The position numbers and the translations under genes are program-made. A stretch of DNA of 64,000 nucleotides from Mesorhizobium silamurunense. GTDB taxonomy: Bacteria > Pseudomonadota > Alphaproteobacteria > Rhizobiales > Rhizobiaceae. The stretch covers positions 62,001 through 126,000 of the forward strand of contig NZ_JHQR01000271.1 of the NCBI RefSeq assembly GCF_014843825.1, given 5' to 3'. Under the pieces are notes generated by a model. The model had not been told where the DNA came from, searched no databases, and saw only the letters and a program-made list of their open reading frames with translations. Position 1 is the first letter of the stretch. Each line of letters starts with the position of its first letter. Below are positions 9,554 to 63,679 of this stretch, piece by piece.

Positions 9554-10834
9554 ATGTCCGAACGCATTGCTGTAATCGGGTTAGGCTATGTCGGCTTGCC
9601 GGTAGCTGTCGCGTTTGGAAAGGTTTTCCCAGGAACGATTGCGTTTGATATCAGCGAACGTCGGATCAACGAACTGCGCGACGGCATCGATCGCACGGGA
9701 GAGGTCGACGCAACGGCGCTCAAGGAAACGTCGATCGTCCTCACCGCCGACCGAAAGATGTTGAAAGGCGCGACGTTCTTCATCGTCGCCGTGCCGACCC
9801 CTATCGATATCAACCGCGCCCCCGATCTTGCTTCTCTGAAGTTGGCATCCGAACTTGTCGGGGAAGCGATTGAGAAGGGCGCGGTCGTCGTCTTCGAATC
9901 GACGGTCTATCCAGGCGTGACGGAAGATTTCTGCGGGCCGATCATCGAGCGGATTTCAGGTCTTAGGCACCCTCATGGCTTCACGCTTGGCTATTCGCCA
10001 GAACGAGCCAACCCTGGCGATCGTGAACACTCGCTGCAACGGATCGTCAAAGTCGTCTCTGGCGAGAATACCGAGACGCTGGAGCGCGTGGCGGATATCT
10101 ACGGCCGCATCATCGATGCCGGTGTCTACCGCGCCCCCTCGATCAAGGTGGCCGAGGCAGCGAAAGTTATCGAGAACACCCAGCGCGATCTGAACATCGC
10201 ACTGATGAATGAACTGGCAATGATCTTCGAGCGGCTCGAGATTCGGACTCAGGATGTCCTCGATGCCGCGTCGACAAAGTGGAACTTTCTTCCCTTCAAG
10301 CCGGGTTTCGTGGGTGGCCACTGCATCAGCGTCGATCCATACTATCTGACCGCCAAGGCAGAGGCTGAGGGATACCATCCGCAGATCATCCTCGCCGGTC
10401 GTCGTATCAATGACGGGATGGGAGCCTTTGTTGCCCAACAGGTCGTCAAGCAGCTGATCCGCTCGGACATGCCCGTCAAAGGAGCTTCCATCGGCATTCT
10501 CGGGCTGACCTTCAAGGAGGACGTGCCGGATTTGCGCAACAGCCGCGTTTTCGACATGGTCAGGGAACTACGGCAGTTCGGCATTGTCCCCAAAGTCCAC
10601 GACCCGCTTGCCGATGCCGAAACCGCTCGACGCGACCATGGCGAAACAATCCTGCCGATTGAGGAAATAAAAGATTTGCAGGCGCTTGTTCTGGCGGTTC
10701 CTCACAAGCAATATCTGGAAGGTGGGAAGTCCCGCATTTTTCAGATGATCAGGCCAGGTGGAACGCTGTTCGACATCAAGTCTGCCTTCAAGCCGAATGA
10801 AATTCCTGGCACGATAAGATATTGGAGCCTGTGA
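9554..10834 (+). CDS. tviB: TviB-like UDP-N-acetylhexosamine 6-dehydrogenase
   Basis: A 426-residue nucleotide-sugar dehydrogenase. The N-terminal NAD domain starts with 'IAVIGLGYVGLPVAVAF'; the substrate domain has 'VVFESTVYPGVTEDFC', 'GYSPERANPGDREHS' and 'AAKVIENTQRDLNIALM'. The catalytic cysteine is in 'GGHCISVDPYYL' (about residue 257). These motifs match the TviB/WbpO branch, which oxidises C6 of UDP-GlcNAc or UDP-GalNAc to the uronic acid in two NAD-dependent steps in the cytoplasm. The epimerase gene follows 32 bases later. It would supply an acidic amino sugar for the polysaccharide. A separate enzyme of this class survives only as a fragment near 52.3 kb. Confidence 0.88.
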   Translation: MSERIAVIGLGYVGLPVAVAFGKVFPGTIAFDISERRINELRDGIDRTGEVDATALKETSIVLTADRKMLKGATFFIVAVPTPIDINRAPDLASLKLASELVGEAIEKGAVVVFESTVYPGVTEDFCGPIIERISGLRHPHGFTLGYSPERANPGDREHSLQRIVKVVSGENTETLERVADIYGRIIDAGVYRAPSIKVAEAAKVIENTQRDLNIALMNELAMIFERLEIRTQDVLDAASTKWNFLPFKPGFVGGHCISVDPYYLTAKAEAEGYHPQIILAGRRINDGMGAFVAQQVVKQLIRSDMPVKGASIGILGLTFKEDVPDLRNSRVFDMVRELRQFGIVPKVHDPLADAETARRDHGETILPIEEIKDLQALVLAVPHKQYLEGGKSRIFQMIRPGGTLFDIKSAFKPNEIPGTIRYWSL

Positions 10835-10866: not shown

Positions 10867-11886
10867 GTGACATCAAGCAGGCCAATTCTGATCACCGGCG
10901 CGGCCGGTTTCATCGGTTTTCATCTCTGTCAGAGACTGCTCTCCGATGGCCGGCAGGTCGTCGGACTCGATTCCATGAACGAGTACTACGACGTCACCCT
11001 GAAGCGGGCGCGACTCGACCGGCTGAACGGGTTTCCGAACTTTCGGTTCGAGCATGTCGATCTCACGGAGCGCGACCGTATTTCGGCGCTGTTTCTGTCG
11101 GCCGCGCCGGAGGTCGTCGTCAATCTCGCGGCTCAAGCCGGCGTGCGCTATTCGCTGACCAACCCGCACGCCTATGCGGAAAGCAATCTCAGCGGCTTTC
11201 TCAATATCCTCGAAGGATGCCGGCACGCCTCGGTTGGCCATCTGGTCTATGCCTCCTCCAGCTCGATCTATGGCGGCAGTACACGAATGCCGTTCTCCGT
11301 TCACGATTCTGCCGACCATCCGCTCAGCCTCTATGCGGCAAGCAAGAAGGCCAACGAGCTTATGGCGCACACCTACAGCCATCTGTTCGGACTGCCGACG
11401 ACCGGACTGCGCTTCTTCACCGTCTATGGTCCTTGGGGACGGCCGGACATGGCTCTGTTCATCTTCGCCAAGGCCATCCTCGCCGGCGAGCCGATCGACG
11501 TCTTCAACTATGGCAACATGCAGCGGGATTTCACTTATATCGACGACATTGTTGAAGGCATTGTCCGCGTCATGCGGCAGCCCGCGACATCCAACCCTGA
11601 TTGGAAAAGTGCCGCGCCGGATCCGGCAACCAGCAACGCGCCGTTCAGGATCCACAACATTGGCGGCAATTCACCCGTTCAACTGAACCGGCTGATCGAA
11701 GTGTTGGAAGACGCGCTCGGGCGCAAGGCAAACCGCAACCTGATGCCGATCCAGCCGGGCGACGTTCCGTCAACTTCCGCCGATGTCAGCTCGCTCGAGG
11801 AGGCGACTGGATTCAAACCAGGGATTCCGATCGAGATCGGGGTTCCGCGTTTCGTGAAATGGTATCGGGAATTCTATCGGGTATGA
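10867..11886 (+). CDS. lpsL: NAD-dependent UDP-hexuronate 4-epimerase (LpsL-like)
   Basis: A 339-residue extended short-chain dehydrogenase/reductase. It has the NAD motif 'LITGAAGFIGFHL', the active-site 'ASSSSIYG' and catalytic 'YAASK' with Tyr near residue 156, and 'RFFTVYGPWGRPDMA', which is characteristic of the UDP-glucuronate 4-epimerase group. It should interconvert UDP-uronates such as glucuronate/galacturonate, fitting the dehydrogenase just upstream, which makes the uronate. GTG start at 10867. LpsL is the Sinorhizobium name; TviC-like substrate preference for an N-acetyl uronate is also possible given its partner. Confidence 0.82.
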   Translation: MTSSRPILITGAAGFIGFHLCQRLLSDGRQVVGLDSMNEYYDVTLKRARLDRLNGFPNFRFEHVDLTERDRISALFLSAAPEVVVNLAAQAGVRYSLTNPHAYAESNLSGFLNILEGCRHASVGHLVYASSSSIYGGSTRMPFSVHDSADHPLSLYAASKKANELMAHTYSHLFGLPTTGLRFFTVYGPWGRPDMALFIFAKAILAGEPIDVFNYGNMQRDFTYIDDIVEGIVRVMRQPATSNPDWKSAAPDPATSNAPFRIHNIGGNSPVQLNRLIEVLEDALGRKANRNLMPIQPGDVPSTSADVSSLEEATGFKPGIPIEIGVPRFVKWYREFYRV

Positions 11887-34086: not shown

Positions 34087-34326
34087 AGAACAAGACCTCA
34101 CTAGGGGCCGTGACGGCGTGATCTCGCCACGCGCTTCACGGCCAGGGTATTCACAAGAATGGACCTATAGCCGTCGACCAGCAAGCGGCTGCGCAAATGG
34201 GCATCGAGCGATCGGGTGGGTCCTGTGGCAGAGCGCTGCCGATTCGGGCGGCTGCGTGGCCGTCGTTTGCGAAAGTTCCCTCTTGCCTCCGTCTTCCTGC
34301 TATCGTGGAGATGAGGAGACGGACCC

Positions 34327-48618: not shown

Positions 48619-50507
48619 TGGCGTAGCTCGCTGACATCGGCCGAACGTCGGGCCAGCACGAGGTGGCCGCCGCCAAGATCGAGCGGCGACAGCATATCCT
48701 CGTCGCCCTCGTCGCGGAATTGCGGTCCCCATGCGCTGGTGTCGGAAGCGCCGCTGAGCTTCAGCGTCTTGAAATCCATCGGCCTGTCGAGATCGGGGAA
48801 AGGTACTGCGGCGACCAGTGAGCGCGTGTAGGGGTGGACCGGTTTCCTAAGCAGAATTTCGCGTGGCGCAAGCTCGACGATACGCCCGCCGCACATCACC
48901 GCGATGCGGTCTGCCATGTAGTCCACCACTGCCAGGTTGTGGGATATGAACAGGTAGGTCAGGCCCAGTTCCTTCTGCAGGTCCTTCAGAAGGTTCAGGA
49001 TCTGCGCCTGGACAGAGACATCGAGCGCCGAAACCGGCTCGTCGCAGATCAGTAGTTCAGGCCCCAGCGCCAACGCGCGCGCGATGCCGATACGCTGACG
49101 CTGCCCGCCGGAGAAACTATGCGGATAACGTTTGATGAAGCGCGGATCGAGCCCGATTGCCTGCATCAGGCTCTTGACCGTGGCGAGTCGGGACGCGGCA
49201 TTGCCGCGTTGATGGATTTCCAGCGGCTCGCTCAAGATGTTCTCCACCGTCATGCGAGGTGAAAGCGACGAAACCGGATCCTGGAAGACCATCTGGATTT
49301 TCGCGCGCATGCGCAGGGCGTCCCCCTCGCCTTCCAGGACGTCGATCGGTCCATCGCGGCCGTTGAAGATCACGGAGCCGCCGCTAGGGGTGACAGCCCG
49401 CATGAGGATCTTGCTGACGGTGGTTTTGCCGGAGCCGCTTTCGCCGACCAGACCCAGGCACTCACCCCGCCTGATATCGAAGCTCACGCCGTCCACGGCG
49501 CGAACGGAGGTTTGATGATCGCCGCCGAACCATCCGGACTTGCGGATGGTGAAGGTCTTTTTCAGATCCCTGACCGACAGCAGAATGTCGTCCGGCCCCT
49601 GCGATGCCGGCGCCGTCTGCTTGCCGAGCAGATTCTCGACATTCACCGGCACCTCGCGGAGCGCCTTTAGCCTTTCGCCAGGCTTCAGGTCGAAATGCGG
49701 AACGGCTGCCATCAGGCCCTTCAGGTAAGGGTGACCTGGCCGGCGGAATATCGCCTCGACAGGTCCCGCTTCCATGATCTCGCCATGGTAGATGACCACC
49801 ACCTCGTCGGCGACATTGGCGACCACGCCGAGGTCGTGCGTGATCAGCAGCATCGCCATGTTCAGCTTGGTCTGAAGCCCGCGCAGCAATTGCAGGATTT
49901 GCGCCTGGATGGTGACATCCAACGCCGTCGTCGGCTCGTCAGCGATCAACAGGGCGGGCCGGCAGATAAGCGCCATGGCGATCATGGCGCGTTGACGCAA
50001 CCCTCCCGAAAGTTCAAAGGGATACATGTCATAGGCGCGCTTGGGATTGGGAAAGCCGACGAGGCTGAGCATTTCCTCGGTCCGCGCCTTGCGCTCCGCC
50101 CGAGCCATGGGCGTATGAATCTGCAGGGATTCACTGACCTGGTTGCCGATCGTGTGCAACGGCGACAGCGATGTCATCGGCTCCTGAAAGATCTTGCCGA
50201 TACGGCTGCCTCTCAACGCGCGGATTTCGGGTCCATCACGCGGCATCTGCAGGATATCCTGCGTCGTGCCGGGCTTTTCAGGGTCGGAAAACAGAATACG
50301 GCCGCGAACATGGGCTGTGTTCGGCAAAATGCCCATCACTGCCTGGCTGAGAACCGATTTTCCGGAACCTGACTCGCCCACAAGCGCGGTAACCTTGCCG
50401 GGCAGGACGCGAAGATTTGCGCGCCTGACGGCATGCAACGGTCCCCCGATAATGGCAAAAGAGATGCCAACATCCTCGATCCGCAGCAGATCAACGCCCG
50501 AATTCAT
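48615..50507 (-). CDS. Peptide-type ABC importer, fused double ATPase
   Basis: A 630-residue protein with two complete nucleotide-binding domains, like YejF/DppD-DppF fusions. Domain 1: Walker A '[12 protein letters not shown]' near residue 45, signature '[15 protein letters not shown]', Walker B '[12 protein letters not shown]'. Domain 2: '[12 protein letters not shown]', '[15 protein letters not shown]', '[12 protein letters not shown]'. It powers the importer encoded downstream. Start at ATG 50507 or GTG 50513 cannot be decided; the ribosome site is weak. Confidence 0.88.
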
Positions 50508-50650
50508 TCTCACACCAGCCCCACTCTGGCAGGTCCAGAAAGCGAGACTAGCGCATTGCCAGCCTAGAGCAACTTGGATTCGAAACGGACGCCGGCGGCG
50601 GGACCGGCGACCGGACGCCTACCAAAGGCGTTCGGATCAGATCGTGGCGG

Positions 50651-51991
50651 TTACTGGAGCTTCCTCGGGTCGCCCGCCGATAGCCGCGCGGCATCACGGT
50701 GAAGCAGCATGACCTGCTCGGCGTCCGATCTTCGGTCGTAAATCGGCTCCAGCGCACCGTCTTCATCGAGTGCGAGAGCACCCGACAGATCGGGTGAAAG
50801 CACCGTCAGCTTCTGCTTGATGCCTGCCAGTTCCTCGTTGCCGAGCGTCAGCCAGCTGTTGGCGCCGCAATAGCTGGCGAAGTCTTTGCTGGCGAGAACG
50901 CTGTGCGGATATTTCTTGGTCAGGATCTGGAGACGCTGGACCTCGTTTACAGCCGAGCCGAAGACAGAGAATGTGAGCCGGTCGGTAAGCCCGACATTGC
51001 CGAACATCACATTGCCGACATGCAGGCCGATACCAAATTTTATGTCGGATAACCCCTTTTCCTTTCTTCGCAGATTGAGATCCATCATGCGCGCGGTGGC
51101 CTTGTGCGCTGCCGTAAGAGCAGCCTGGCAGGCGATCTCGGACTGCGAGCGGTGCCTTTCGCAAGGGTAGACGGCAATGAAGCCGTCCCCTATGAAACTC
51201 ATGATCTGCCCGCCTTTGCGATTGAAAGGTGCAGCAACGGCGTCGAAAAACTGGTTCAGCGTATCGATATAGATTTCGCGGCCGGAGGTTTCGGCAAGCC
51301 TTGACGACCCGCGCATATCGCCCATGACCAGTGCGGCCCGGATTGTATCGCCCTCGCCGCGCTTGATCTGACCGTCAAGCACGCGCCTGCCGGCGTCGCC
51401 GCCGAGATAAGTGGTCATCATGTTGTCGGCGAGCTTGGTGAGCACCGCCATCTTGGTTGCGATCGCGAGATGGCTCTGAATGCGCAGCAGCGCCGAAATC
51501 ATGCTCTCGCTGAAGCCTGCGGCGCTGTCGGTGGACCAAGACCCCATCATGCCCTGACTGGTGTTGCCATTGAAGGGAAGGACGAAAGCCATGTAGTCGG
51601 TGACGCCCATAAGCCTGAGATCATCGAAAACAGGAAACTCCGGCGGCACCGACGGGTCGAGCCGGCGTCGCAGATGGTCGAGCTTATTGCTCAGCAGATG
51701 GTAGTATGGGCTGGTCAGGAATCTGTCAGACGGCACGCCGGGCTTACTGCGGAAGCTTTCCACTTCCATGCCCTGGCCGCGAGCCCAGGTGAAGCCAAGC
51801 GCATCATAAAGCGGATGAAGCATCGAAAAGCTCAAATGCACCCGCTTCAGCGGCAGGCCGGCAGCAGCCAGCCGTTCGCAAAAGCCTTTTACCAATGTTT
51901 CCAGGTCGTTGCCCGCAAGCGCCGATTGGTTCAGCCAATCGGCAACCTTATCCATGAGAATGGTGGAAATTTCTGCTTGCGCTGTACTCAT
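50651..51991 (-). CDS. Class III nucleotide cyclase with GAF-like N-terminus
   Basis: A 446-residue protein from ATG 51991. Residues about 1-200 form a sensor region with GAF-like pattern; residues about 225-400 hold a class III cyclase domain with metal Asp residues in 'VMGDMRGSSRL' and 'FIGDGFIAVY' and the Asn/Arg pair in 'SAVNEVQRLQ'. All core residues are kept. It is leftward, 143 bases upstream of the importer operon, and could report on a cytosolic signal linked to peptide uptake (inference). One of five cyclase-domain genes in 22 kb. Confidence 0.85.
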   Translation of the reverse strand: MSTAQAEISTILMDKVADWLNQSALAGNDLETLVKGFCERLAAAGLPLKRVHLSFSMLHPLYDALGFTWARGQGMEVESFRSKPGVPSDRFLTSPYYHLLSNKLDHLRRRLDPSVPPEFPVFDDLRLMGVTDYMAFVLPFNGNTSQGMMGSWSTDSAAGFSESMISALLRIQSHLAIATKMAVLTKLADNMMTTYLGGDAGRRVLDGQIKRGEGDTIRAALVMGDMRGSSRLAETSGREIYIDTLNQFFDAVAAPFNRKGGQIMSFIGDGFIAVYPCERHRSQSEIACQAALTAAHKATARMMDLNLRRKEKGLSDIKFGIGLHVGNVMFGNVGLTDRLTFSVFGSAVNEVQRLQILTKKYPHSVLASKDFASYCGANSWLTLGNEELAGIKQKLTVLSPDLSGALALDEDGALEPIYDRRSDAEQVMLLHRDAARLSAGDPRKLQ

Positions 51992-52256
51992 GCTCTCTCG
52001 CAACCCGCCGAAAACGGAGCCATTATCCGTTGATCCGCCATAACACAGTTCGCCAACGACCCAAAGGTAAGCCCCCGGAAGTCAAAGAGGCAGGCTTCGG
52101 CGGCAAAAGCGGCGAAGAATTTCCCGGATGACTGTCTTTGCGGCCAAGGAGCAGGCGCAACTGCATCTATGTTCTGTGGCGTTATGTGGCGAGGCTGCCG
52201 GCGGAGTGCAATCATGATCCTGACATCGGGCAAAAAATTCGCCGGCTCAGACGCCG
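51992..52256. promoter_or_regulatory. Region upstream of GAF-cyclase gene
   Basis: About 265 bases between the cyclase start and the nucleotide-sugar dehydrogenase remnant. No gene seen. It should contain the promoter of the cyclase gene. Confidence 0.35.
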
Positions 52257-52497
52257 TCAGGCCTTCAAGACCGTCTCTCCGTCCAGCCCGAGGCTGCCAA
52301 AAACATTGCGTGTGTCGACGATCAGAAGGGCGTGATCAGCGATCGTCTGATAGTCGATCGCGTCGTGGTCGGTTGCAGCGACGACAGCACCCGACATAGC
52401 CTAGTCCGATCACGCCGGCTTGCGCGGCGCGCGTATCGATCGTGAGGCGTCCAAAAATCTGCTTCCCGTCAAATTCGGACAGGCTGTCCGTTCCCAT
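52257..52497 (-). pseudogene. Nucleotide-sugar dehydrogenase remnant with internal deletion
   Basis: Reading leftward from ATG 52497, the first codons give 'LTIDTRAAQAGVIGLGYVG', the N-terminus of a UDP-sugar 6-dehydrogenase with the NAD-binding GxGxxG. At about 52395 the sequence jumps, with a frame change, to 'GAVVAATDHDAIDYQ' and 'ALLIVDTRNVFGSLGL', the end of the same kind of protein, with TGA at 52257-52259. About 350 codons in the middle are missing. It is a scar of a deleted gene of the WbpA/WecC class, different from the intact enzyme near 9.6 kb. Confidence 0.7.
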
Positions 52498-52568
52498 GGC
52501 GAGGCTCACTTGGTTCTAAGAACCATGGCCGAGGCATATTGCGGAAGATCGATTTCCGCAGGCCGTCA

Positions 52569-53735
52569 TCAAACCGGCACCTTCGCCTTCAGGCTTGCGG
52601 CAGCCATTGCATAGCCGCCGGCGGCGCCATCGATGAAATGAACGTGATCGCGCTGCAGCGGCGAGGCGACGAGGCATGTCATCAAGGCCGATTTCTGGCG
52701 GTGCAGGCCATAGGTGCAGATGCCGGCCTCTTCCGCCTGTTTCAGCCGGTTCTCGATCCGTTGCAACACATCCGCGTCAACGTCGATGGTCATCTTCAAG
52801 CCGTCGTCGAACTTCCGGAAATCCGAATTGCTCGCCACGTCGCGTTTGTAGATCTTGGGATCGAAACGGCCGATGGTCCAGCCATATCTATCGGTGACAG
52901 CCGTAAGCGTCATCAGGAACACTATCCACAGCTTCGACAGCCACCGCCGTCCTGGCGGCGCCACGGCCCGCGCCTCGATATCCAGGCCGGCGGGCAGCAA
53001 ACTGTAGCCCGGCCCGTTCACTGGCACCGGGTGGCCATCGCGTTCCTGCCTGCCGGCAAGGGCGATAATGTCGGAAGCCAGGAACTGAAAACCGCGCAAG
53101 TCGCGCGACGCCCCCGGTATGGCTATGATCGAGACGATTTCGCCATGCCGAGCTTCGATTGGGTTCCAGCGGCAGGAGAGGCCGGTCAGGTCCGGCCGCG
53201 TGCCGGCCGGCGCAGGATCGATGCGGTAGCGCCCCGCTTTCATCTCGGCTTCCGCCCAACTGCCGCCACCGCCGGCGAACATGGCATAGAAGACCGCTTC
53301 GGAGGCCTGGAACCTCGCCACGCGAACGTCGAGGCCTTGCGCTCTTATATCCTTTATCGGCACGATTGCGGCACGCAAGGTCAGGTCCAGTTCGTCCGCC
53401 ACCCATCTTTGGACAGCGGCCAGCGCGTTGCGGGTGATCTCCAGCGCCGAGCCGGGAAACGCCACGAGCGCGCCGTCGCCGCCGAAGACAAAGGGAAGAT
53501 CTTGCCGACGCAGCGCATTGAGCAGCGCCGAAATGACGCTGGCGCCGGCCATATTGACGGTTTTATAGCGCCCAGCCTCGATCGCCTTGGTCGAGCCGAC
53601 GATGTCGGCGGTGGCCAGCGCCCAGCCATCGGGGAGAGGCCGATAGTTGTCGATATCGGCAACGCTTTCGAACTTTGCGAAGACCGGCAGAGAAGCGACA
53701 AACGGGTCGGACGCGGCAGGTGTTTCCATGAGCAT
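52569..53735 (-). CDS. DUF3095 family protein (nucleotide-cyclase-like)
   Basis: About 388 residues from ATG 53735 (53729 is equally possible). Its N-terminal half resembles a cyclase homology domain, with Asp in 'LATADIVGSTKAI' and 'FVFGGDGALVAFP', and it matches the DUF3095 class, which is annotated as adenylate cyclase-like. The Asn/Arg pair typical of active class III cyclases is not obvious. A hydrophobic segment ('LWIVFLMTLTAVT') lies near residue 280. It may be an active cyclase or a nucleotide-sensing relative. Divergent from the GT4 gene, sharing an 86-base gap. Confidence 0.78.
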   Translation of the reverse strand: MLMETPAASDPFVASLPVFAKFESVADIDNYRPLPDGWALATADIVGSTKAIEAGRYKTVNMAGASVISALLNALRRQDLPFVFGGDGALVAFPGSALEITRNALAAVQRWVADELDLTLRAAIVPIKDIRAQGLDVRVARFQASEAVFYAMFAGGGGSWAEAEMKAGRYRIDPAPAGTRPDLTGLSCRWNPIEARHGEIVSIIAIPGASRDLRGFQFLASDIIALAGRQERDGHPVPVNGPGYSLLPAGLDIEARAVAPPGRRWLSKLWIVFLMTLTAVTDRYGWTIGRFDPKIYKRDVASNSDFRKFDDGLKMTIDVDADVLQRIENRLKQAEEAGICTYGLHRQKSALMTCLVASPLQRDHVHFIDGAAGGYAMAAASLKAKVPV

Positions 53736-53821
53736 CAAATAGCACATTCCACTGCTTGAAGGTGAAGTCGATCGTGCTTCGAAATTGACTTGCGCTGGCG
53801 TTCCGATGATAGGGTTCGGCG
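53736..53821. promoter_or_regulatory. Short divergent promoter gap
   Basis: The 86 bases between the DUF3095 gene and the glycosyltransferase gene must contain both promoters. 'TGATAGGG' next to the glycosyltransferase start is AT-rich. No dyad or operator was seen. Confidence 0.3.
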
Positions 53822-54910
53822 ATGCGAATTGCCTTCTACGCGCCGCTGAAGTCACCCAATCATCCCGTCGCCTCCGGCGACCGCCAGATGGCACGGATGC
53901 TGGTCAAGGCGCTGGAGCATGGAGGGCATAGCGTCGAACTGGCATCCGAATTGCGCTTCTATCTACGGGAACCGGAGTCGAAAAGTTTCGATGCGCTCAA
54001 GATCGAGGCCGAAGATGAAGCCGCGCGGCTGACAAGGCTTTGGGATCGTGACGGCAAGCCCGATCTGTGGTTCTCCTATCATCCCTATTACAAGGCGCCC
54101 GACCTGATCGGGCCCGCGCTGGCATCGGCCTTTGCTGTCCCCTATGTGACAGCGGAAGCCTCCTATTCGAGGCGGCGCAATGCCGGTTTGTGGGCCGATA
54201 CGCAAGCGTTGGTGGCGCGAGCCGTCGAACAGGCGGCGCTGAACGTCTGCTTCACGCAAAGGGATCGTCAGGGACTGGCAGATGCGATACCCGGCGCCGC
54301 TTTCGGCATGCTTTCGCCCTTCATCGACACATCGGTATTCCGAGAGACGCCGGCTCGGGGTAGTCCGACGCGCCTCGTTACCGTCGCCATGATGCGCCCG
54401 GGCGACAAAGTCGAAAGCTATCGCATGCTGGCGCAAGCGCTCGGTTCGATCGGCCACCTGCCCTGGACCATGTCGGTCGTCGGGGACGGGCCTGCCCGTG
54501 AAGAGGTCAAAGCGCAATTCGTCGGCTTGCCCGCCGACCGTATCGAATGGCTTGGCGCGATCGAGCCGGCCGCCGTGCCGGATGTCCTCTACAGCGGGGG
54601 AATTTACGTCTGGCCGGGTTTCGGCGAGGCCTATGGCGTTGCCTATCTTGAAGCACAGGCCGCCGGCCTTCCGGTGGTGGCTCAGGACATCGCGGGCGTG
54701 CCGGAGGTCGTGCGAGATGGCCAGGCTGGGTTTCTCACCCCGCCGGACGATGTGGCGGCGTTCGCTTCTGCCATTGAAAGGCTTCTGGTCCGTAACGACG
54801 AAAGAACCATCATGGCTGCAGAAGCCAGACGTTTCATCCTCGAAGAACGTTCCCTCGGTGCTGCGGCGGCGCGTCTGGCCGAACTTCTTGCGAGGATCCC
54901 GGCTTCATGA
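53822..54910 (+). CDS. Family 4 glycosyltransferase
   Basis: A 362-residue GT-B enzyme. The N-terminal half begins 'MRIAFYAPLKSPNHPVASGD', the C-terminal half has 'VVGDGPAREEVKAQF', 'WPGFGEAYGVAYLEAQAAG' (the E-x7-E motif, core 'GEAYGVAYLEA') and 'GLPVVAQDIAGVPEVV'. It moves an activated sugar to an acceptor and keeps the anomeric configuration. The stop overlaps the next ATG (ATGA), so it is coupled to the deacetylase gene. Confidence 0.88.
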   Translation: MRIAFYAPLKSPNHPVASGDRQMARMLVKALEHGGHSVELASELRFYLREPESKSFDALKIEAEDEAARLTRLWDRDGKPDLWFSYHPYYKAPDLIGPALASAFAVPYVTAEASYSRRRNAGLWADTQALVARAVEQAALNVCFTQRDRQGLADAIPGAAFGMLSPFIDTSVFRETPARGSPTRLVTVAMMRPGDKVESYRMLAQALGSIGHLPWTMSVVGDGPAREEVKAQFVGLPADRIEWLGAIEPAAVPDVLYSGGIYVWPGFGEAYGVAYLEAQAAGLPVVAQDIAGVPEVVRDGQAGFLTPPDDVAAFASAIERLLVRNDERTIMAAEARRFILEERSLGAAAARLAELLARIPAS

Positions 54911-55671
54911 CATCCGATCAGATCTGGCAACCCTTGGTGGAAGAACTGGCGTGCCGGCAACGGGCGGACCGTAAGGCAGAATTCTGGCTGCGCGACGATG
55001 ACGCCGTGGATCCGACGCCTGCGCTTGATCGGCTGCTCGACCTCACCGGTGAATTCGCGGTTCCGGTCACTCTGGCCGTCATTCCGGCCATGACTGATGA
55101 GAAGCTTGTCACCCGGCTTGACGAGGCGCCGCATGCCACGGTCGCCATCCATGGCTGGGCGCACCGAAATCATGCGCCCGAGGACCAGAAAAAGCAGGAG
55201 CTCGGCCCGCATCGGCCACGCGAGGCGGTGCTCGATGATCTGGCTCGCGGGCTGTCGCACGTAACCGGCCTGCACGGCGCACGTGCCGTTCCGATGCTGG
55301 TGCCACCCTGGAACAGGATCGACGCCGGCTTGGTATCCGACCTTGGATCGATAGGATTTGCGGCATTGTCGGTCTATGGGCCGCCGAAGCCGGCTTCGCT
55401 GGCGGTCATCAACAGCAATGTCGACATCATGGATTGGCATGGCACGCGCGGTTGCCGCGATCATGGCGTGTTGGTTCAGGCCATTATCGCGCAACTGCGG
55501 CATGCATTCGACGGCGGCGAACCGGTCGGCCTGCTCACCCACCATCTTGTACATGATGAATCGGCCTGGCTTTTCCTCGAACGGCTGTTCACAGTCACCG
55601 CACAGACTGAAGCCTGCGCATGGCTTCCGATCAAGACATTGATTGGGCGCTATGCCGGTGGAGGAAAATAA
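54907..55671 (+). CDS. Polysaccharide deacetylase-like protein
   Basis: A 254-residue protein of the NodB/CE4-like fold family. 'EFWLRDDDAVDP' supplies an acidic motif near residue 27, 'VAIHGWAHRNHAP' gives the metal-binding His-x3-His pattern near 79, and 'LVPPWNRID' resembles motif 3. It probably removes an acetyl group from a sugar in the cytoplasm, as no signal peptide is seen. Translationally coupled to the GT4, so both act on one intermediate (inference). Confidence 0.8.
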   Translation: MTSDQIWQPLVEELACRQRADRKAEFWLRDDDAVDPTPALDRLLDLTGEFAVPVTLAVIPAMTDEKLVTRLDEAPHATVAIHGWAHRNHAPEDQKKQELGPHRPREAVLDDLARGLSHVTGLHGARAVPMLVPPWNRIDAGLVSDLGSIGFAALSVYGPPKPASLAVINSNVDIMDWHGTRGCRDHGVLVQAIIAQLRHAFDGGEPVGLLTHHLVHDESAWLFLERLFTVTAQTEACAWLPIKTLIGRYAGGGK

Positions 55672-55672
55672 C

Positions 55673-56527
55673 TCATCGCTCTTTGTGCAATGAGACTGGA
55701 AATTTGAGCGTCTGGCCATCCCGCGCGGCAAATGCGCCGGCAAACCTGTCTTTAGCCAGTTTCTCGATCTCGTCCAGTTGCTCGTCGGTGCGTGTCGGAT
55801 CGTGGTGAAACAGCGCAAGCCTCCGCGCACCGGCCGCCTCACAGAGCTTGACGCCGTGTTGCCATGTCGAGTGCCCGTCACCGCGGTGGCGTTCCATTTC
55901 CTCCTCGGTGTAGGTGCAGTCGTAAATGACGAGGTCGGCATCTTCGATCAGGCCGAGCACCGTCTGATCGAGTTTGTCCGGCTCGTGCTCAGTGTCTGTG
56001 ATCACCGCCACGACGCGGCCACCCCATTCCACCCGGTAGCCTATGCAGCCGCCCGGATGGATAAGACTGCCGGTTCGGACCACCACGCCTTCGCGCGGCC
56101 GAAGCACGTCTCCGGATACGAAATCGCGGCAGTCGAGGCTTGCCTTGCAGACATCCAGTTTCACCGGAAACCACGGCGGCCGCATGAACTCGTCGACCAT
56201 CTGCCGGGTCGTCACGCGTCCTGCAAGATGCCCGGACCAAAGCGTAACCTTGACGCTCCGGTCATAGATCGGCACAAAAAATGGCAGACCGATGATGTGA
56301 TCGTAATGGCAGTGGGTGAAAAGCAGGTCGAAATCGGTCACGCCCGACGCCCGAAGCGCCCGGCCCGCAGCCCGTAGGCCAGAGCCCGCGTCGAAGAGAA
56401 GCGTATGCTTACCGCATCGCATCTCAATGCAGATTGTGTTGCCGCCATAGCGAGAGAATTCTGGCCCCGATACCGAAATACTGCCGCGCACGCCCCAAAA
56501 CCTGACCAGGAAAACGTCGTCGTCCAT
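55673..56527 (-). CDS. Metallo-beta-lactamase-fold hydrolase
   Basis: A 284-residue MBL-fold protein from ATG 56527. The zinc motif is 'FTHCHYDHIIGLP' (HxHxDH), with further ligands in 'VITDTEHEPD' and 'ALFHHDPTRTD'. The class includes phosphodiesterases that open cyclic nucleotides and RNase Z-like enzymes. In this setting a cyclic-nucleotide phosphodiesterase or related role is plausible, but not proven. It is convergent with the deacetylase gene with only one base between the stops. Confidence 0.8.
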   Translation of the reverse strand: MDDDVFLVRFWGVRGSISVSGPEFSRYGGNTICIEMRCGKHTLLFDAGSGLRAAGRALRASGVTDFDLLFTHCHYDHIIGLPFFVPIYDRSVKVTLWSGHLAGRVTTRQMVDEFMRPPWFPVKLDVCKASLDCRDFVSGDVLRPREGVVVRTGSLIHPGGCIGYRVEWGGRVVAVITDTEHEPDKLDQTVLGLIEDADLVIYDCTYTEEEMERHRGDGHSTWQHGVKLCEAAGARRLALFHHDPTRTDEQLDEIEKLAKDRFAGAFAARDGQTLKFPVSLHKER

Positions 56528-56663
56528 GCTAGCCCTTCGCAGTCCCCGTCGCCCATCGTAGCCAAACAACTGCTGCTAAGCGAGACAAGGTTTTTCTCCT
56601 GGTGACCTTATCAATAAGAGGACAGTGCCATCACGACAGCGAGGATCGAGCCCAGGTCATTCG

Positions 56664-57113
56664 TTATTTGGCGCTTCGTGCGTCGATCAGATCCGCAGTC
56701 GTATGGCTCAGGCGATCGGCAAGAACCCGCACCATCTCGATGGTCATTTCCGGGAACTCCTTCATAAGCCTCAGGAAATGATCCTTGCGGATTCTCAAGG
56801 CTTCCAGCGGACATGCCGCTCTGACGGTGGCCGTGCGGGAGCTGTTGCACAATATGGCGATCTCGCCAACAATCGAATTTGGCACCAGTTCGGCAACTTT
56901 TATCGGTCCGCTGTCGGAATCGACCAGAATATCCGCCCTGCCTGAAAGGATGACATAGGCGGCGTCTCCCTCGTCGCCCTGCCGGAAAAGGATCTGGCCG
57001 GCGCTATAGCTCACGCGATCGGATGTGAACGCAAGCAGCTTGAGCTTTGTCGGCTCTATGCCAGAGAACAAGGGAACGCGTTGCAGCATTCCAACCTCAT
57101 CCTTGAGCAGCAT
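56664..57113 (-). CDS. Cyclic-nucleotide-binding domain protein
   Basis: A 149-residue protein from ATG 57113 (GGGAAGG 9 bases upstream). It is almost entirely one CNB domain: 'VPLFSGIEPTKLKLLAF', the phosphate-binding cassette 'NSIVGEIAILCNSSRTATVRA' (shortened: 'VGEIAILCNSSRTATV', with the Glu and Arg that bind the cyclic phosphate), and a C-terminal helix. It has no DNA-binding domain, so it is a stand-alone receiver and not a CRP-like regulator. It likely relays the cyclic nucleotide made by nearby cyclases to a partner; the ABC-like gene next door is a candidate. Confidence 0.85.
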   Translation of the reverse strand: MLLKDEVGMLQRVPLFSGIEPTKLKLLAFTSDRVSYSAGQILFRQGDEGDAAYVILSGRADILVDSDSGPIKVAELVPNSIVGEIAILCNSSRTATVRAACPLEALRIRKDHFLRLMKEFPEMTIEMVRVLADRLSHTTADLIDARSAK

Positions 57114-57304
57114 TGTCGCAAACCTTCCCAAAATTCGCGTCTGCGAGACTAGAACAACCGACACCCAGATGGAATCAATTCTGTTTCCGGATGGCGAGAC
57201 GAACCACGCGAAAGGTGGCGAGCCCGATCAGCCGGAAACCCGAATCCCTTGACCTTGCAGCAAGTTCCCACCGGCAGAACGATCCCATCTGAATGTCCAA
57301 TGCT

Positions 57305-60019
57305 CTATGACAGCAGTTCCTTGAAAATACCGTTCCCTGCCAAAAGTGTCTCGTGTGTTCCGTCCTCCACCAAACGACCCGAGTCGAAGACGACAACGCG
57401 ATCGAACATCATCCCCATTGCCGGATTCGTCACGACCCACACAATTGCCGGCGAATGGCCGTCGCGTCTGGCTTCCTCGAGCACGTTTCGCAGCACCTTA
57501 TCCTGCATGCGCTGGTCGAGCGCCGACAGCGGCCGGTTGAGAATGAGAAAATCGGGACGCTTGAGCAGGGCCCGGGCAACATCGAGCTTCTGTCGCTGTC
57601 CACCGGTCAACCGCCTGCCGCCGGCACCGACGTTGAAGTCCAGGCCGACATTCAAAAGTTCGGCATAAAGTCCCAGTTCGTCAAGAATGTCGTAGACGAT
57701 GGAGCGTATGCGGTCCGGTGCGTCGGGATGGTTGTTGCCCACACGCCCGAACAGGACATTGTCCATGACGGTAGCCGCGGCAATGTATCTGGCAGGATCA
57801 TACCGTTCGACCGCATTTTGCAGCTCGGACGGCAGGTTTTCATAGAACCGGTTGCGTGCAGCCACGATCTTGCTCATCAGCTCGTCGCTCAGCAGGCCGA
57901 AACGGTGCCGGGGCTCGATATAGGCAAAGCTCAAGGTGACGATCATGGCGCGGTCGTTCTCCGAAACCGCCTCGTAGGGACGGTTCTTGAGCCGTTGCAG
58001 CAAGGTTTCGTAGGCGGGTATCTCCTCGGCGCTCATGAAGGCGAGCTGCTGGAAGAACTGGTGATCGGGCGGCAGGTCGGCAAACAGCTCGATCGCCTGT
58101 TCGGCGATCTCCATGCCCATTTCGTAGAGCGTGCGGTCGAGGCCGGCTTGCCTCAGCACAGAAGCAAAATAGGAATTGGCCGCCAGGGCCCTGTCGGCCA
58201 ATTCGGGGCCGGCGGCGGCGCCGAAAAGCAGGTTTTGGCCGATCGTTGCTTCCTTGTTGTAGGCGCCCGGTTCGAAAGGAACCACAAGTCCGCTCAGCCC
58301 TTCGTGTTCCAGCCGCGTTCGCAGCGCCGCACGCAGTTCGACGATCCGCCCGGCAAGCTCCGTGTGACGCGTGAGGTCGGCCGAAGAGCGCAAGCCAAGA
58401 TCCAGGATATCGCGCGACAGAACAACCGCGTCGAGCACCCGGCGCACGGGTTCAATGAGGTCGTTCGGGCCGGTAGCGCCGGCGGAAGCATAGTTGATCC
58501 AGTCGCTGTGGATATCAAGATCCGGATTGCCCGACCGGCGCGCCTCGTGGATGTTCCAGCGGTTCTGGTCTGCCGCAGCACCATCGTAAGTCACTGATGT
58601 CAGCGGCGCATGCTTCAACCCGTAGAGCAGGTTATCGCGGAGGCTCGCCTGGAACAGGAAAACATCCGACGAGGCATAGGACATGCGCCGGCCGGTCACT
58701 GCTTCGGGGAGTTCAAGCAGGTCGTCGGCGCCCGAAGCCACCTTTCCGCTGTCCGGCCAATTCAGCCGCGCGAAGGCCTCTGCAAGCGCCTCCGCTCCGC
58801 CTGTTGCGGTACTGACCAGCGCCACCGTCTCACCAGGCTTGACCTGGAGGGAGATACGGTCGAGGAGCATTGCACCGCCATCGTCTGCTATGGACAGACT
58901 GATCGCCGACAGGGGGTTGGTCATCGGATCTGGATCGTCGATCGTCAATGCCCCGATTCGCGGCGCAATGAGACCCTCGACGGTGAACTGTTCAACGACC
59001 TGTTGATATTTGACCTGGACATCCTGCCGGTCCTGATCCCAGTCGATCAGTTCCTTCATCGGTCCGGGCAGGTCCTTGTAAGCGCCGATCACGGCCACGA
59101 GCTGGCCGACGTCCAGCCGCCCCTGGATAACCAGATACCCGCCGATCATGTAGAACAGAAACGGCGTGACCTGTGCGAGAAAATTGTTGAGGAACTTCAC
59201 CATGAATTTCCATTGGTAAAGATCGAAGCGGATCTTAAAGATGAGCCCGAGCCGGGCAGCTATGTCGGCGCGCTCGTAGTTTGATGTATCGTGGACGTGA
59301 ACCGCGCCGATGCCGTCGACGATTTCGCCAACGCGGCCCGAAAGCGCGCGCGCCGTCAACTGCCGTTTGCGCCCGAGCACGATCAGCCGCCGCCGCATTC
59401 GCGGGATGAGCACGATCTGGATCACCACGATCATGGCCGCTACCATTCCGAGCCAGAGGTTCTGGACCAGGATGAACAGCATGGCCGTCAGCGCCTGGCC
59501 GCCGAGCAGTACTGGCTGCAGGAAGGCATCGCCGATGAAGCCGCCCAGCGGCTCCACCTCGTCCTTCACCATGGTCGCCACTTCGGCGGATTTCACCCGC
59601 TTGAAGTAAAACGGCGGAAACCGCAGCACACGATCGACCAGTTCGAAGCGGATACGCCGCAGCATGCGTTCGCCGAGGCGGCCCTTGTAGGTGTTGATGT
59701 AGAGTTTGAACAGGCCGTTGATGACGACTAGCAAGAGGAACACAAGGCTCAGGGCAAACAGCGTCGACGTGCGGTCGAGCTGAAAACCGGAGAAGAACTG
59801 GACCTCTCCAATGAACGGCAGGTTATAGTGTAGCCTCATGAAGGGCTGGGTCGCGCCCGGTTGCTCGAAGCCCTTACCTTGGATCGGGCCGTTGACGATC
59901 AGCTTCGGCAGGTCGAAGGACATGAAATACGGGATCATCGAAAGCAAGACGATCATCAATATCCAGACCTGCTGCTTCTTGGTATGCGTCCAGATATAGC
60001 GGGCTAGGCTGGGTTCCAT
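57305..60019 (-). CDS. ABC-exporter-like protein with degenerate, expanded nucleotide-binding domain
   Basis: A 904-residue protein. Residues about 1-340 are an ABC exporter membrane domain with six predicted spans. The nucleotide-binding part has lost its motifs: the Walker A position reads 'VALVSTATGGAEALA', lacking GKS/T; the Q-loop reads 'YASSDVFLF'; Walker B is 'FLILNRPLSALD', with Asn for Asp and Arg for the catalytic Glu; the switch His is Asn ('VVTNPAMG'). The signature 'LTGGQRQKLDVARAL' is kept. Walker A and signature are about 400 residues apart, not about 100. The extra part repeats the 'xxxNLLFG' helix start three times. It is probably a pseudo-ATPase transporter or regulatory subunit. 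ATG 60019 is used. Confidence 0.82.
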   Translation of the reverse strand: MEPSLARYIWTHTKKQQVWILMIVLLSMIPYFMSFDLPKLIVNGPIQGKGFEQPGATQPFMRLHYNLPFIGEVQFFSGFQLDRTSTLFALSLVFLLLVVINGLFKLYINTYKGRLGERMLRRIRFELVDRVLRFPPFYFKRVKSAEVATMVKDEVEPLGGFIGDAFLQPVLLGGQALTAMLFILVQNLWLGMVAAMIVVIQIVLIPRMRRRLIVLGRKRQLTARALSGRVGEIVDGIGAVHVHDTSNYERADIAARLGLIFKIRFDLYQWKFMVKFLNNFLAQVTPFLFYMIGGYLVIQGRLDVGQLVAVIGAYKDLPGPMKELIDWDQDRQDVQVKYQQVVEQFTVEGLIAPRIGALTIDDPDPMTNPLSAISLSIADDGGAMLLDRISLQVKPGETVALVSTATGGAEALAEAFARLNWPDSGKVASGADDLLELPEAVTGRRMSYASSDVFLFQASLRDNLLYGLKHAPLTSVTYDGAAADQNRWNIHEARRSGNPDLDIHSDWINYASAGATGPNDLIEPVRRVLDAVVLSRDILDLGLRSSADLTRHTELAGRIVELRAALRTRLEHEGLSGLVVPFEPGAYNKEATIGQNLLFGAAAGPELADRALAANSYFASVLRQAGLDRTLYEMGMEIAEQAIELFADLPPDHQFFQQLAFMSAEEIPAYETLLQRLKNRPYEAVSENDRAMIVTLSFAYIEPRHRFGLLSDELMSKIVAARNRFYENLPSELQNAVERYDPARYIAAATVMDNVLFGRVGNNHPDAPDRIRSIVYDILDELGLYAELLNVGLDFNVGAGGRRLTGGQRQKLDVARALLKRPDFLILNRPLSALDQRMQDKVLRNVLEEARRDGHSPAIVWVVTNPAMGMMFDRVVVFDSGRLVEDGTHETLLAGNGIFKELLS

Positions 60020-60035
60020 ATGCGACTGAGGACCT

Positions 60036-60398
60036 TCAGTTGGAAGGATGGATGTAAAAGCACCTGCCGGGGGACGGCGTATCGGCGATTTCTTCGCCGC
60101 CAGCGACAAGTTCGAAACTGCAGTGCGCGGAGGCTGTCCTGCGATCAGCGATGGAAGGAACCTGCGAGGCGGCGCGATCCAGTTCCGGCGCAGGGTCGAT
60201 GACAACGACATGGGCATTGTTCATCGGCGAAGAAAGCAGCCGGCCAAACGGATCGCGGCTTCCGTAGGGTTTTGACGAATAGCCGAGCAGCACGAGGCCG
60301 CAGCTGCGCCGCTGGTGCTGGCGGATGGACGCCGATGGTCCGAACAGATGCAACAGGCTCTCTCCGGCACCGGGCAATGGCGAAGCGGCTTGCGGCAT
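60036..60398 (-). CDS. Possible small hypothetical protein
   Basis: A 120-residue frame from ATG 60398 (GTG 60404 also possible) with GC-rich third positions resembling real genes here. Its stop is 16 bases before the ATG of the ABC-like gene, so it could be the first gene of that operon. Notable segment: 'GLVLLGYSSKPYGSRDPFG'. No family recognised. It is on the same strand as the ABC-like gene and diverges from the methyltransferase-like gene. Evidence is codon use and spacing only. Confidence 0.45.
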   Translation of the reverse strand: MPQAASPLPGAGESLLHLFGPSASIRQHQRRSCGLVLLGYSSKPYGSRDPFGRLLSSPMNNAHVVVIDPAPELDRAASQVPSIADRRTASAHCSFELVAGGEEIADTPSPGRCFYIHPSN

Positions 60399-61198: not shown

Positions 61199-61250
61199 AA
61201 ACAAAGAGATAGAGCGGTTCTGCGTTTCCGTGAAACGATGAACCGCTCTA
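61199..61250. repeat. Palindromic repeat overlapping a stop codon
   Basis: AAAACAAAGA is followed by a nested hairpin: outer TAGAGCGGTTC (61210-61220) with GAACCGCTCTA (61240-61250), inner CGTTTC with GAAACG. The leader sequence matches the leader of the repeat at 7827-7836. The right arm covers the TAG stop of the neighbouring glycosyltransferase gene. Same repeat family as the 7.8 kb element, likely acting as a transcription end or a mobile intergenic element. Confidence 0.65.
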
Positions 61251-62438
61251 GGATCCGTCGTCTGTTTGATCATGCCCTTTTCCGAAACCAGGCCCCATTT
61301 TTAGGAACCATGTTCGATACCTCTCGCGCAGGATTTGCGCCGAGTGACGCGCGCCTTCCAGATCGAGGCGATGCGCGGATGGCCTCGGTCTCACAAGCGC
61401 CTGTTCGATCGCTTGCGCCAAACCTTCAGGCGTTAGGTCCTTTTCCATCAGCACCGTTGCAAGACCGAGTTCTTCGAGCATCAGGGCGCGAACCGTTTGT
61501 TCGGTTTCCCCGCCGGCTGCAAATGGAACAAGCAGGGAGCGACAACCCGCGCGCAGGACATCGCAGACCGTGTTGTAACCCGCCTGCGAGACTGACAGGC
61601 GGGCGCCGGCTAGCAGGCTGGCGAAATCCTCGCGGAACCGAAAGATGGACAGGCCCGGCGTGGCATCGCGTGCGATCGCGTCAAACTCGTCTTTCGGCAG
61701 GTTTGGGCCGGTGATCAAACACCATGTCCAACCGTTGTTGGCATTCCGCGCCGCTGCGATGGCGGAGCTGACAAGGCTCTTTCCGGCAGCCCCGCCGCCA
61801 ACCGACACCAGAACGTCGAAGCGCTCGGAGGCCGCGGGCGATGGCGGCGCGGCAACGAGCCCTGTGTAGGTGACCTCGGCCCTGATCGCCCCAGCCAGTG
61901 GAAATGTCTTGTCGATGGTTGCGAAAGCCGGATCGCCGTGGACCATAACAAGGTCGAAATGCCGGTTGATGAGATCGACCGTTTCCTCATTTCGGCCCGG
62001 CTTGACGCGCTCCTGAAGGATATCACGGACGGACGTCGCCAGCAGCGGTCTGGGCGACGTCGCGTCGATGGCCTCGATCAGCGGCAAGAGTTCGAAGCGC
62101 ATCTGCCGGCGTCCAAATGGAAACGCCTCGACAACGACGATATCAGGCCTGCAATCCCGGTATGCCTGCAGCAGCATCTCTGAACGCCGTTTCTTGAAAT
62201 CATCGTCGATGGGTTTGCCCTGCAGGTCGACAAGTCCGGAAAATCCTTCATCACCGGAGGTGACAGGTGGCAGGGTTACAGATTTTACCCCAAGTCCCGG
62301 AAACCCCGCCATCGGCGCTCCGCCGGTCACGACGGTTACGTCGAACCCGTCATCGACCAGAGCCGCCGCGATGCGGCTGGAGCGCGCGAGATGGCCGATA
62401 CCGAGCAGGTGCTGGACATAGAGGAAGACGCGCTTCAA
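61248..62438 (-). CDS. MurG-like (GT28-type) glycosyltransferase
   Basis: A 396-residue GT-B protein. The start TTG 62438 overlaps the stop of the upstream gene (TTGA), and the protein then begins 'KRVFLYVQHLLGIGHLARS', the family N-terminus with GxGH. C-terminal motifs are 'VLVSVGGGAAGKSLV' and 'LSVSQAGYNTVCDVLRAG' with the 'AGYNT' donor-binding segment seen in MurG-like transferases. It transfers a sugar from a nucleotide donor to a lipid or glycan acceptor, with no membrane segment. Its stop codon lies inside the palindromic repeat. Confidence 0.83.
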   Translation of the reverse strand: MKRVFLYVQHLLGIGHLARSSRIAAALVDDGFDVTVVTGGAPMAGFPGLGVKSVTLPPVTSGDEGFSGLVDLQGKPIDDDFKKRRSEMLLQAYRDCRPDIVVVEAFPFGRRQMRFELLPLIEAIDATSPRPLLATSVRDILQERVKPGRNEETVDLINRHFDLVMVHGDPAFATIDKTFPLAGAIRAEVTYTGLVAAPPSPAASERFDVLVSVGGGAAGKSLVSSAIAAARNANNGWTWCLITGPNLPKDEFDAIARDATPGLSIFRFREDFASLLAGARLSVSQAGYNTVCDVLRAGCRSLLVPFAAGGETEQTVRALMLEELGLATVLMEKDLTPEGLAQAIEQALVRPRPSAHRLDLEGARHSAQILRERYRTWFLKMGPGFGKGHDQTDDGS

Positions 62439-63679
62439 TCGGCGGCCCGCCACTCGCGCTCGAACAGTTCCTTGAGCTGTCCAATGCTTGCCATATGATC
62501 GAAATTGCCGCGCACGCGCCGCTCTGCGGCGTCGCCGAGGCGGGCGCGCAGCACGGGATCACGGATCAGGCGCTCCAGCGCCTGTGCCAGGGCAATTGGG
62601 TTTTCCGTCGGAACCAGCAGCCCGGTTTCATCCGGCGATAAAAGCTCCGGCACGCCGGAAATATCGGTCGACACGCAGGCAAGCCGCTGGCTAGCCGCCT
62701 CCACCAGAACATTCGGCAGACCGTCCCGGTCGCCATTTGCGGTGATCCTGCAGGCCAGGGCGAAGATGTCGGCGCGGCGGTAGTGCTGAAGCACCTCCTC
62801 CTGCGCAAGCGCGCCTTTCCAGGAGACGCGACCATTCAGCCCGAGCTTTTGCGCAAGCGCCTTGAGCCGTTCTAGTTCCTCGCCGCTGCCGATATGCTCA
62901 AAACGCCACGCCAAATCGCCAGGCAAGAGGGCAAGGGCCTCCAGTAAGGTATCGTAACCTTTCTTTTGAACGGCGCGCCCGACACTCAGAACGATAACCG
63001 GTTCGTCCGGCGCCGAGCCGTCATGCTGTTTTCGCGCCTCGCCGAAACTGCCGAAGCGGTCAAGGTCGAGCCCATGATAGCTCAGATGCACAGACGAGTT
63101 GCCGTTGGAGAGTTCTTTCAGACGGTCGAAGCCGGTTTTCGTGCAAGTAACCGTCCAGCGCGCCGAGGCAAGCTTGCCAGCCAGATCCCAGTCCGCCGAA
63201 GTCCAGATGTCCTTGGCATGGGCTGAGCAGCTCCAGGGCAGGCTACGAAGCTGGCTGGCATAGCGCGTCACCGATGCCGGCGTATGTGCGAAATGTGCAT
63301 GCAACCATCCCGCGCCTTCCGGCCATTCGGCCGCCAGCACAAGCGCTTGCCCGAAGCGGCGCACGCGATTGCGCGTAAAGTCGCGGGGGATATCGGTAGC
63401 CAGCGATCCGAGCGCGCGCCAGAAGCCCGGCCGCAGCAGATGAGCAAACAGCGAGCGAACCACGCGCAGCGGCTCTTCATGCAGATATTCCGGCAGATAG
63501 TGGACGGGCGCTTTGATCTCGTCATGCACGGGGTGGCGTTTTGCGTCGGTCGGCCGCCTGAGCGCGACGAGTATCAGCTCGAACCCCGCACGCTCCAGAC
63601 CGAGCAGTTCCTGCGCGATGAAGGTTTCCGACAGCCGCGGATAGCCCTTCAGAACCACCACGATCTTGCGATGTTGCAA
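62435..63679 (-). CDS. Family 4 glycosyltransferase 2
   Basis: A 414-residue GT-B enzyme starting at TTG 63679. The N-terminus 'VVVLKGYPRLSETFIAQE' and the C-terminal 'VLSVGRAVQKKGYDTLLEAL', 'RITANGDRDGLPNVLVEAASQ' (shortened 'DGLPNVLVEA') and 'VCSTDISGVPELL'-like region are family 4 signs. The gene begins one base after the stop of the upstream gene and overlaps the next gene, so three glycosyltransferase genes form one leftward operon. Confidence 0.87.
   Translation of the reverse strand: MQHRKIVVVLKGYPRLSETFIAQELLGLERAGFELILVALRRPTDAKRHPVHDEIKAPVHYLPEYLHEEPLRVVRSLFAHLLRPGFWRALGSLATDIPRDFTRNRVRRFGQALVLAAEWPEGAGWLHAHFAHTPASVTRYASQLRSLPWSCSAHAKDIWTSADWDLAGKLASARWTVTCTKTGFDRLKELSNGNSSVHLSYHGLDLDRFGSFGEARKQHDGSAPDEPVIVLSVGRAVQKKGYDTLLEALALLPGDLAWRFEHIGSGEELERLKALAQKLGLNGRVSWKGALAQEEVLQHYRRADIFALACRITANGDRDGLPNVLVEAASQRLACVSTDISGVPELLSPDETGLLVPTENPIALAQALERLIRDPVLRARLGDAAERRVRGNFDHMASIGQLKELFEREWRAAD

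Follow-up and report, generated by a model that had tools for sequence, protein, structure and literature searches.

A dehydrogenase scar between two cyclase-like genes

The window, by which we mean the whole 64,000-nucleotide stretch of Mesorhizobium silamurunense DNA that was analysed, comes from a 7.04-Mb draft genome of 493 contigs (G000). On its minus strand, a 198-nt remnant of a dehydrogenase gene (198 of the original 1344 nt) lies among genes for cyclase-like proteins, glycosyltransferases and an ABC transporter. A second dehydrogenase gene, paired with an epimerase gene, is located elsewhere in the window. The features are listed in Table 1.

Table 1. Scar, neighbouring cluster genes and the paired TviB-like and epimerase genes, in window positions
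Feature	Position	Strand	Remarks
Dehydrogenase scar	52257..52454	-	TTG start 52454-52452, TGA stop 52259-52257; from alignment with intact orthologues
28-base deletion junction	52434..52435	-	Gene positions 21-48 gone; measured against G101, G078, G011
1118-base deletion junction	52388..52389	-	Gene positions 95-1212 gone; about 1 base of microhomology
Cyclase downstream of scar	50651..52003	-	Guanylate_cyc, Pfam 31.8 bits (cut-off 21.9); in 89/89 locus-bearing genomes
DUF3095 protein upstream of scar	52569..53894	-	Pfam 435.9 bits; predicted cyclase-like fold
GT4-type glycosyltransferase	53822..54910	+	In 89/89 locus-bearing genomes
Weakly polysaccharide-deacetylase-like protein	54907..55671	+	Pfam E 0.0016, below cut-off; syntenic elsewhere
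Metallo-beta-lactamase-fold hydrolase	55673..56569	-	Cluster member
Cyclic-nucleotide-binding protein	56664..57164	-	Cluster member
ABC transporter permease/ATPase	57305..60217	-	Cluster member
GT28-type glycosyltransferase	61248..62453	-	Matched in 89/146 genomes of the genus, a set identical to that of DUF3095
TviB-like dehydrogenase	9554..10834	+	TIGR03026 352.8 bits (cut-off 189.8)
NAD-dependent sugar epimerase paired with TviB-like gene	10867..11886	+	

When positions 52030-52569 were used as a DNA query against 61 genomes, 24 matched, the source genome included, with identities of 83-94% downstream of the junction and mostly 73-83% in the upstream part. The two halves of the query, which abut in the window, were found about 1.1 kb apart in 19 of these 24 genomes, where they flank a gene of 1344 bases. 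Of the remaining genomes, two have a shorter gap (G014 and G029), one has a different deletion (G026), and G013 gave no more than a weak paralogue match. An earlier note on this DNA, made from its letters alone, had recognised the start and the end of one dehydrogenase here; both pieces are indeed present, reading ...RAAQAGVIGLGYVG in one frame and GAVVAATDHDAIDYQTIADHALLIVDTRNVFGSLGLDGETVLKA followed by TGA in another. That note let the scar begin at 52497. Since the relatives start with TTG at 52454 (71 of 72 genomes whose match is nearly full-length), we place the scar at 52454-52257; the sole exception among the 72, G072, is frameshifted early in the gene.

In the alignment with intact orthologues, gene positions 1-20 correspond to 52454-52435, positions 49-94 to 52434-52389 and positions 1213-1344 to 52388-52257. 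The size of the larger deletion, 1118 bases, was the same against each of five intact relatives (G125, G163, G101, G078 and G011), and the 28-base deletion is a separate event near the gene start. The two add up to 382 missing codons, more than the roughly 350 estimated earlier. Either deletion alone shifts the frame and both together restore it, with stop codons between the two. A check for direct repeats at the large junction had been proposed, and none was found; neither do the repeat families of an intact locus (L006) match the breakpoints. Since the ends have only about 1 base in common and no longer repeat was found, the sequence suggests that the 1118-base deletion arose by illegitimate end-joining without repeats.

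Searched alone against family models, the C-terminal piece reached 15.5 bits with PF03720 (cut-off 30) and the N-terminal piece had no match. The pieces are too short for such models, and the identity of the scar therefore rests on its relatives. With so little of the gene left, it does not hold the complete NAD-binding, central and UDP-binding domains. No Rfam match was obtained for the scar or the spacer (50500-54000 searched). A conserved element was also considered as a cause of the high identity downstream of the scar and was rejected: among gene-bearing genomes, the spacer to the cyclase gene can be as short as about 35 bases or as long as about 280, and is thus not tightly constrained.

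The source genome being a draft of many contigs, the scar could in principle be an error of assembly. We regard this as extremely improbable, since the remnant carries two separate frame-breaking lesions, its junction is embedded in a contig of 138 kb and has conserved flanks, and other assemblies, several of them of one to five contigs, have lost this gene too.

The intact gene and its conserved neighbourhood

The intact orthologue (L006) matches the TIGR03026 model of the WbpA/WecC/TviB/UDP-glucose dehydrogenase superfamily with 431.9 bits (cut-off 189.8), the match spanning positions 2-413 of the 413 in the model. The window copy differs from members of this family in being a remnant and not an enzyme. 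No curated substrate-level model was reached by the intact orthologue, which scored 225 bits against a cut-off of 592 for the TviB equivalog (NF011729) and 240.7 bits against 459 for the UDP-ManNAc dehydrogenase WecC (NF008286). Its best relatives of solved structure are annotated as dehydrogenases of the UDP-ManNAcA and NDP-GalNAcA types. C278, K223 and N227 are invariant in the six sequences of alignment A1; the Cys of GGHC.P and the Lys and Asn of K.TEN are what we take to be the catalytic residues of NDP-sugar dehydrogenases. The median dN/dS of intact copies against their nearest intact relative was 0.144 (n=69), and the gene is thus under purifying selection where it is present. On these alignments, the scar is what is left of a formerly functional NDP-sugar dehydrogenase gene.

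The downstream neighbour of the scar is a cyclase by its Pfam match. For the DUF3095 protein upstream, a structure model (pLDDT 87.8) was compared using Foldseek, and the best PDB matches were soluble domains of adenylyl cyclases (E 5e-5, probability 1.00, but with a TM-score of only 0.40 and an rmsd of 13.8). The modelled fold suggests that DUF3095 may itself be a cyclase, or else a regulator derived from one, and it makes 'between cyclase genes', the location given by the earlier note, a fair description. Its D39 and a GGDG motif are invariant in 18 aligned sequences. A search of openly accessible papers found none on DUF3095.

Of 552 confirmed relatives, the best 80 were taken, as loci from named genomes. 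Among these 80, the dehydrogenase gene lies at most 700 bases from both a cyclase and a DUF3095 homologue in 27, including loci of Sinorhizobium, Rhizobium, Phyllobacterium and Mesorhizobium; it adjoins the GT4 gene instead in 15 (Agrobacterium and others), and at least three cluster genes were found within the fetched stretch in 48. Since the same order is seen in Sinorhizobium, Rhizobium and Phyllobacterium, the dehydrogenase is an old member of the cluster. The comparison of flanks with complete relatives, which had been recommended as a check, thus holds beyond the genus. Within Mesorhizobium, the matching of GT28 and DUF3095 in the same genomes (lists compared by eye) suggests that the cluster is passed on or lost as one unit. 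The tie between signalling and acidic sugar synthesis that had been drawn from this arrangement is borne out as a conserved gene neighbourhood, and no further than that. As far as the sequence comparisons go, they confirm that the scar is real and that its first interpretation was right in the main points.

Repeated loss of the dehydrogenase in Mesorhizobium

The DUF3095 locus was present in 89 of 146 Mesorhizobium genomes, and GT4, DUF3095 and cyclase genes were found in all 89. The other 57 genomes were left out, and deletions that reach into DUF3095 would escape this count. An ancestor had been expected to carry the complete gene at this place, and 69 of the 89 genomes do so, with the same pair of cyclase-like neighbours; in the other 20 the gene is deleted or broken. 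These 20 losers comprise 17 genomes plus three recognised by inspection of starts and stops, namely G009 (early stop), G072 (frameshift) and G081 (internal stop).

Among the losers we counted 16 or 17 different lesions, made up of 12 deletions and five small lesions (in G009, G019, G072, G081 and G092); the count is given as a range because the sisters G080 and G099 may share one deletion. One deletion is common to G014, G029 and G104, and one is probably common to G121 and G134. Breakpoints were taken as the ends of local alignments and are exact to a few bases only. By parsimony on the locus tree, loss requires 15 changes, at least nine of which are forced by well-supported branches. The large deletions end before reaching either neighbour in the 89 DUF3095-bearing genomes.

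We compared dN/dS of the neighbouring genes between losers and intact genomes, counting a gene in two pieces by its longer piece where that was long enough (88 of 89 genomes for GT4 and DUF3095, 89 for the cyclase). The values were 0.216 vs 0.246 for GT4 (p 0.27), 0.173 vs 0.174 for DUF3095 (p 0.92) and 0.165 vs 0.147 for the cyclase (p 0.53). For GT28, every one of the 20 losers had a match; stop codons were flagged within it in 4 losers and in 7 of the 69 other genomes. The losers have thus kept the four pathway genes compared here, GT4, DUF3095 and the cyclase being present with unchanged dN/dS and GT28 being matched throughout. Gene loss is a known kind of event; what is unexpected here is the frequency with which this gene is lost and the strong link of its loss to a distant second dehydrogenase.

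Loss goes with the TviB-like gene

The intact enzyme near 9.6 kb shares 36% identity with the lost one, and is, as had been stated earlier, a different member of the family. In the Salmonella Vi capsule pathway, TviB is described as oxidising UDP-GlcNAc and TviC, a C-4 epimerase, as epimerising the product (PMC3448643). The window pair resembles this arrangement in that a TviB-like dehydrogenase adjoins an epimerase, but the dehydrogenase scores 450.5 bits against the TviB cut-off of 592 (NF011729), and we therefore call it TviB-like only; the epimerase scores 106.6 bits against 760 for TviC. Neither family models nor solved structures fix the substrate of either dehydrogenase, curated substrate-specific cut-offs not being reached.

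Orthologues of the TviB-like gene (at least 87% identity) were found in 19 of the 146 genomes, 18 of which have the locus, and the epimerase stands beside it in 16 of the 19. Of 27 other window proteins, none gave a match of more than 40% identity up to about 9 kb away from it in the carriers; it thus behaves like a small unit whose surroundings vary. The associated epimerase family is widespread also in genomes devoid of the TviB-like gene (match in 139 of 146). In 394 sampled genomes of the bacterial family, the close type of the TviB-like gene (at least 87%) was not found in other genera, where the best match was 59%.

The dehydrogenase was lost in 13 of the 18 carriers of the TviB-like gene vs 7 of the 71 genomes that lack it (Fisher 3e-7). 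In a likelihood comparison on the tree, dependence of loss on this gene was favoured over independence with a likelihood ratio (LR) of 28.9 (p 7e-8), the loss rate being about 37-fold higher in its presence. Single-gene trees gave LR 27.0 (GT4), 28.1 (DUF3095) and 25.6 (cyclase), the four trees thus spanning 25.6-28.9; all of them are trees of this locus and not of whole genomes. In 200 simulations under independence, the LR stayed below 28.9 throughout (maximum 7.3). With deletions only, loss was seen in 11 of 18 carriers vs 4 of 71 others (LR 27.1). A conservative independent-pairs sign test was only borderline, with about 4.6 vs 0.1 of 11 pairs and a median p of 0.0625 (17 losses), and p was 0.125 with the traits exchanged (17 losses). 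Loss is thus concentrated where the candidate substitute is present; it is non-random and goes with the TviB-like gene.

Exceptions occur on both sides. Five of the 18 carriers have an intact gene (G011, G028, G061, G156 and G163), whose dN/dS is not raised (p 0.77), and seven of the 20 losers have no orthologue of the TviB-like gene. These seven, together with the borderline paired test, would fit a gene under weak selection in the whole genus, its loss following the TviB-like gene through shared ancestry or common ecology alone. We consider this highly improbable, in view of the LR obtained on the tree, the simulations, the low dN/dS of intact copies and the lack of a tree-based link for two other dehydrogenase types.

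As for those types, a 52% relative of the TviB-like enzyme (12 of 89 genomes) and a 60% paralogue of the lost enzyme (13 of 89) gave LR 0.70 each on the concatenated tree, and the two control types showed no significant link on any of the four trees (LR 0.06-2.80). With the tree left out of account, the 52% relative gave p 0.13 overall and p 0.009 in genomes that lack the TviB-like gene (loss in 4 of 11 vs 3 of 60); three of these four losers form one clade, and the tree-aware test gives no support. Among homologue matches down to about E 3e-63, the TviB-like gene, a 51-52% relative or a 59-64% paralogue was found in 20 of 20 losers vs 20 of 69 intact genomes (Fisher 3e-9), and at least three further family members were counted by eye in 36 of the 69 intact genomes. 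We have set aside the claim of a general effect of any extra dehydrogenase, since this grouping is post hoc, such members are common and the two other types by themselves have no significant link on any of the trees. In three losers devoid of the TviB-like gene, L133 (G092), L134 (G167) and L135 (G019), much of the dehydrogenase gene is kept, the damage being small lesions or a short deletion; among the matches listed, each of the three has an approximately 60% paralogue of the lost enzyme elsewhere.

Models of the reverse dependence are nearly as good, with LR 23.9 for loss favouring gain of the TviB-like gene and 25.5 for loss favouring its retention, against 28.9. Their log-likelihoods of -74.98 and -74.15 compare with -72.45 when the TviB-like gene comes first. 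We thus prefer, though not decisively, the order in which the TviB-like gene came first and loss second.

Possible replacement of the lost activity

Gene loss after functional replacement is the well-known phenomenon of non-orthologous gene displacement. The present case is like it in that one enzyme is repeatedly lost where a distant member of its family is present, and the pathway neighbours are kept. It differs in that a common reaction is here only presumed, and five genomes retain both enzymes.

The explanation that we favour, and hold to be fairly probable, is that the cluster dehydrogenase has been lost many times, chiefly in carriers of the TviB-like gene, because the TviB-like enzyme makes a replacement product, the rest of the cluster being kept. 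A functional dehydrogenase was originally part of the conserved cyclase, glycosyltransferase and ABC transporter cluster. The TviB-like enzyme, usually with the adjoining epimerase, would then have been acquired elsewhere in the genome before the loss, and would make the same or an interchangeable UDP-sugar acid. The cluster's own enzyme would thereby become redundant and decay. In the window, the two frame-shifting deletions broke the gene after the split from the nearest relatives in the set.

The same association between loss and the TviB-like gene would fit a switch of glycan, in which the carrier lineages make a different surface glycan and give up the cluster dehydrogenase since its product is no longer needed, rather than since another enzyme provides it. 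The frequent pairing of the TviB-like gene with an epimerase is in keeping with such a switch, since a pair of this kind is known from capsule synthesis (PMC3448643). However, the glycosyltransferase and cyclase-like neighbours are undecayed in the losers, as expected of a running pathway, and a switch appears rather unlikely to us. The state of these neighbours favours a pathway that still runs, with its acidic sugar supplied from elsewhere. Replacement is thus the reading that we retain, and it is most likely the TviB-like enzyme that would supply the lost activity.

If the TviB-like enzyme of the window acts as Salmonella TviB does, the lost enzyme would, under replacement, have done so too, and from this we infer that the product of the cluster is UDP-GlcNAc-derived. 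A wider statement, that a TviB-type dehydrogenase, usually with its epimerase, has repeatedly displaced the resident dehydrogenase in trans across one genus, is offered tentatively, as we would put its chances somewhat below even. Were it true, the cluster would make a HexNAc-uronate glycan, produced and exported among genes of cyclic-nucleotide signalling. In any case the locus is a replicated natural experiment, in which one cluster gene has been lost by 16 or 17 different lesions, mostly in genomes that carry a distant relative, and its neighbours remain under selection. From it, functions open to test can be proposed for two uncharacterised dehydrogenases and for a rhizobial cluster of cyclase-like proteins, glycosyltransferases and transporters. 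Among openly accessible papers, we found none that joins Mesorhizobium with a nucleotide sugar dehydrogenase or a UDP-N-acetylglucosamine dehydrogenase.

Further observations on the region

Many orthologues of DUF3095 have a frame break or a stop near the start of the open reading frame of the window (53720-53894, minus strand), and for this reason its first 25-50 residues are probably untranslated. Four cyclase-type genes lie within about 23 kb of the window (30787-53894), these being 30787-34101, 42413-43828 (with DUF5939) and the two that flank the scar. An open reading frame of 978 residues at 36318-39254 on the plus strand fuses a GT2 glycosyltransferase, a NodS-type methyltransferase and a polysaccharide deacetylase.
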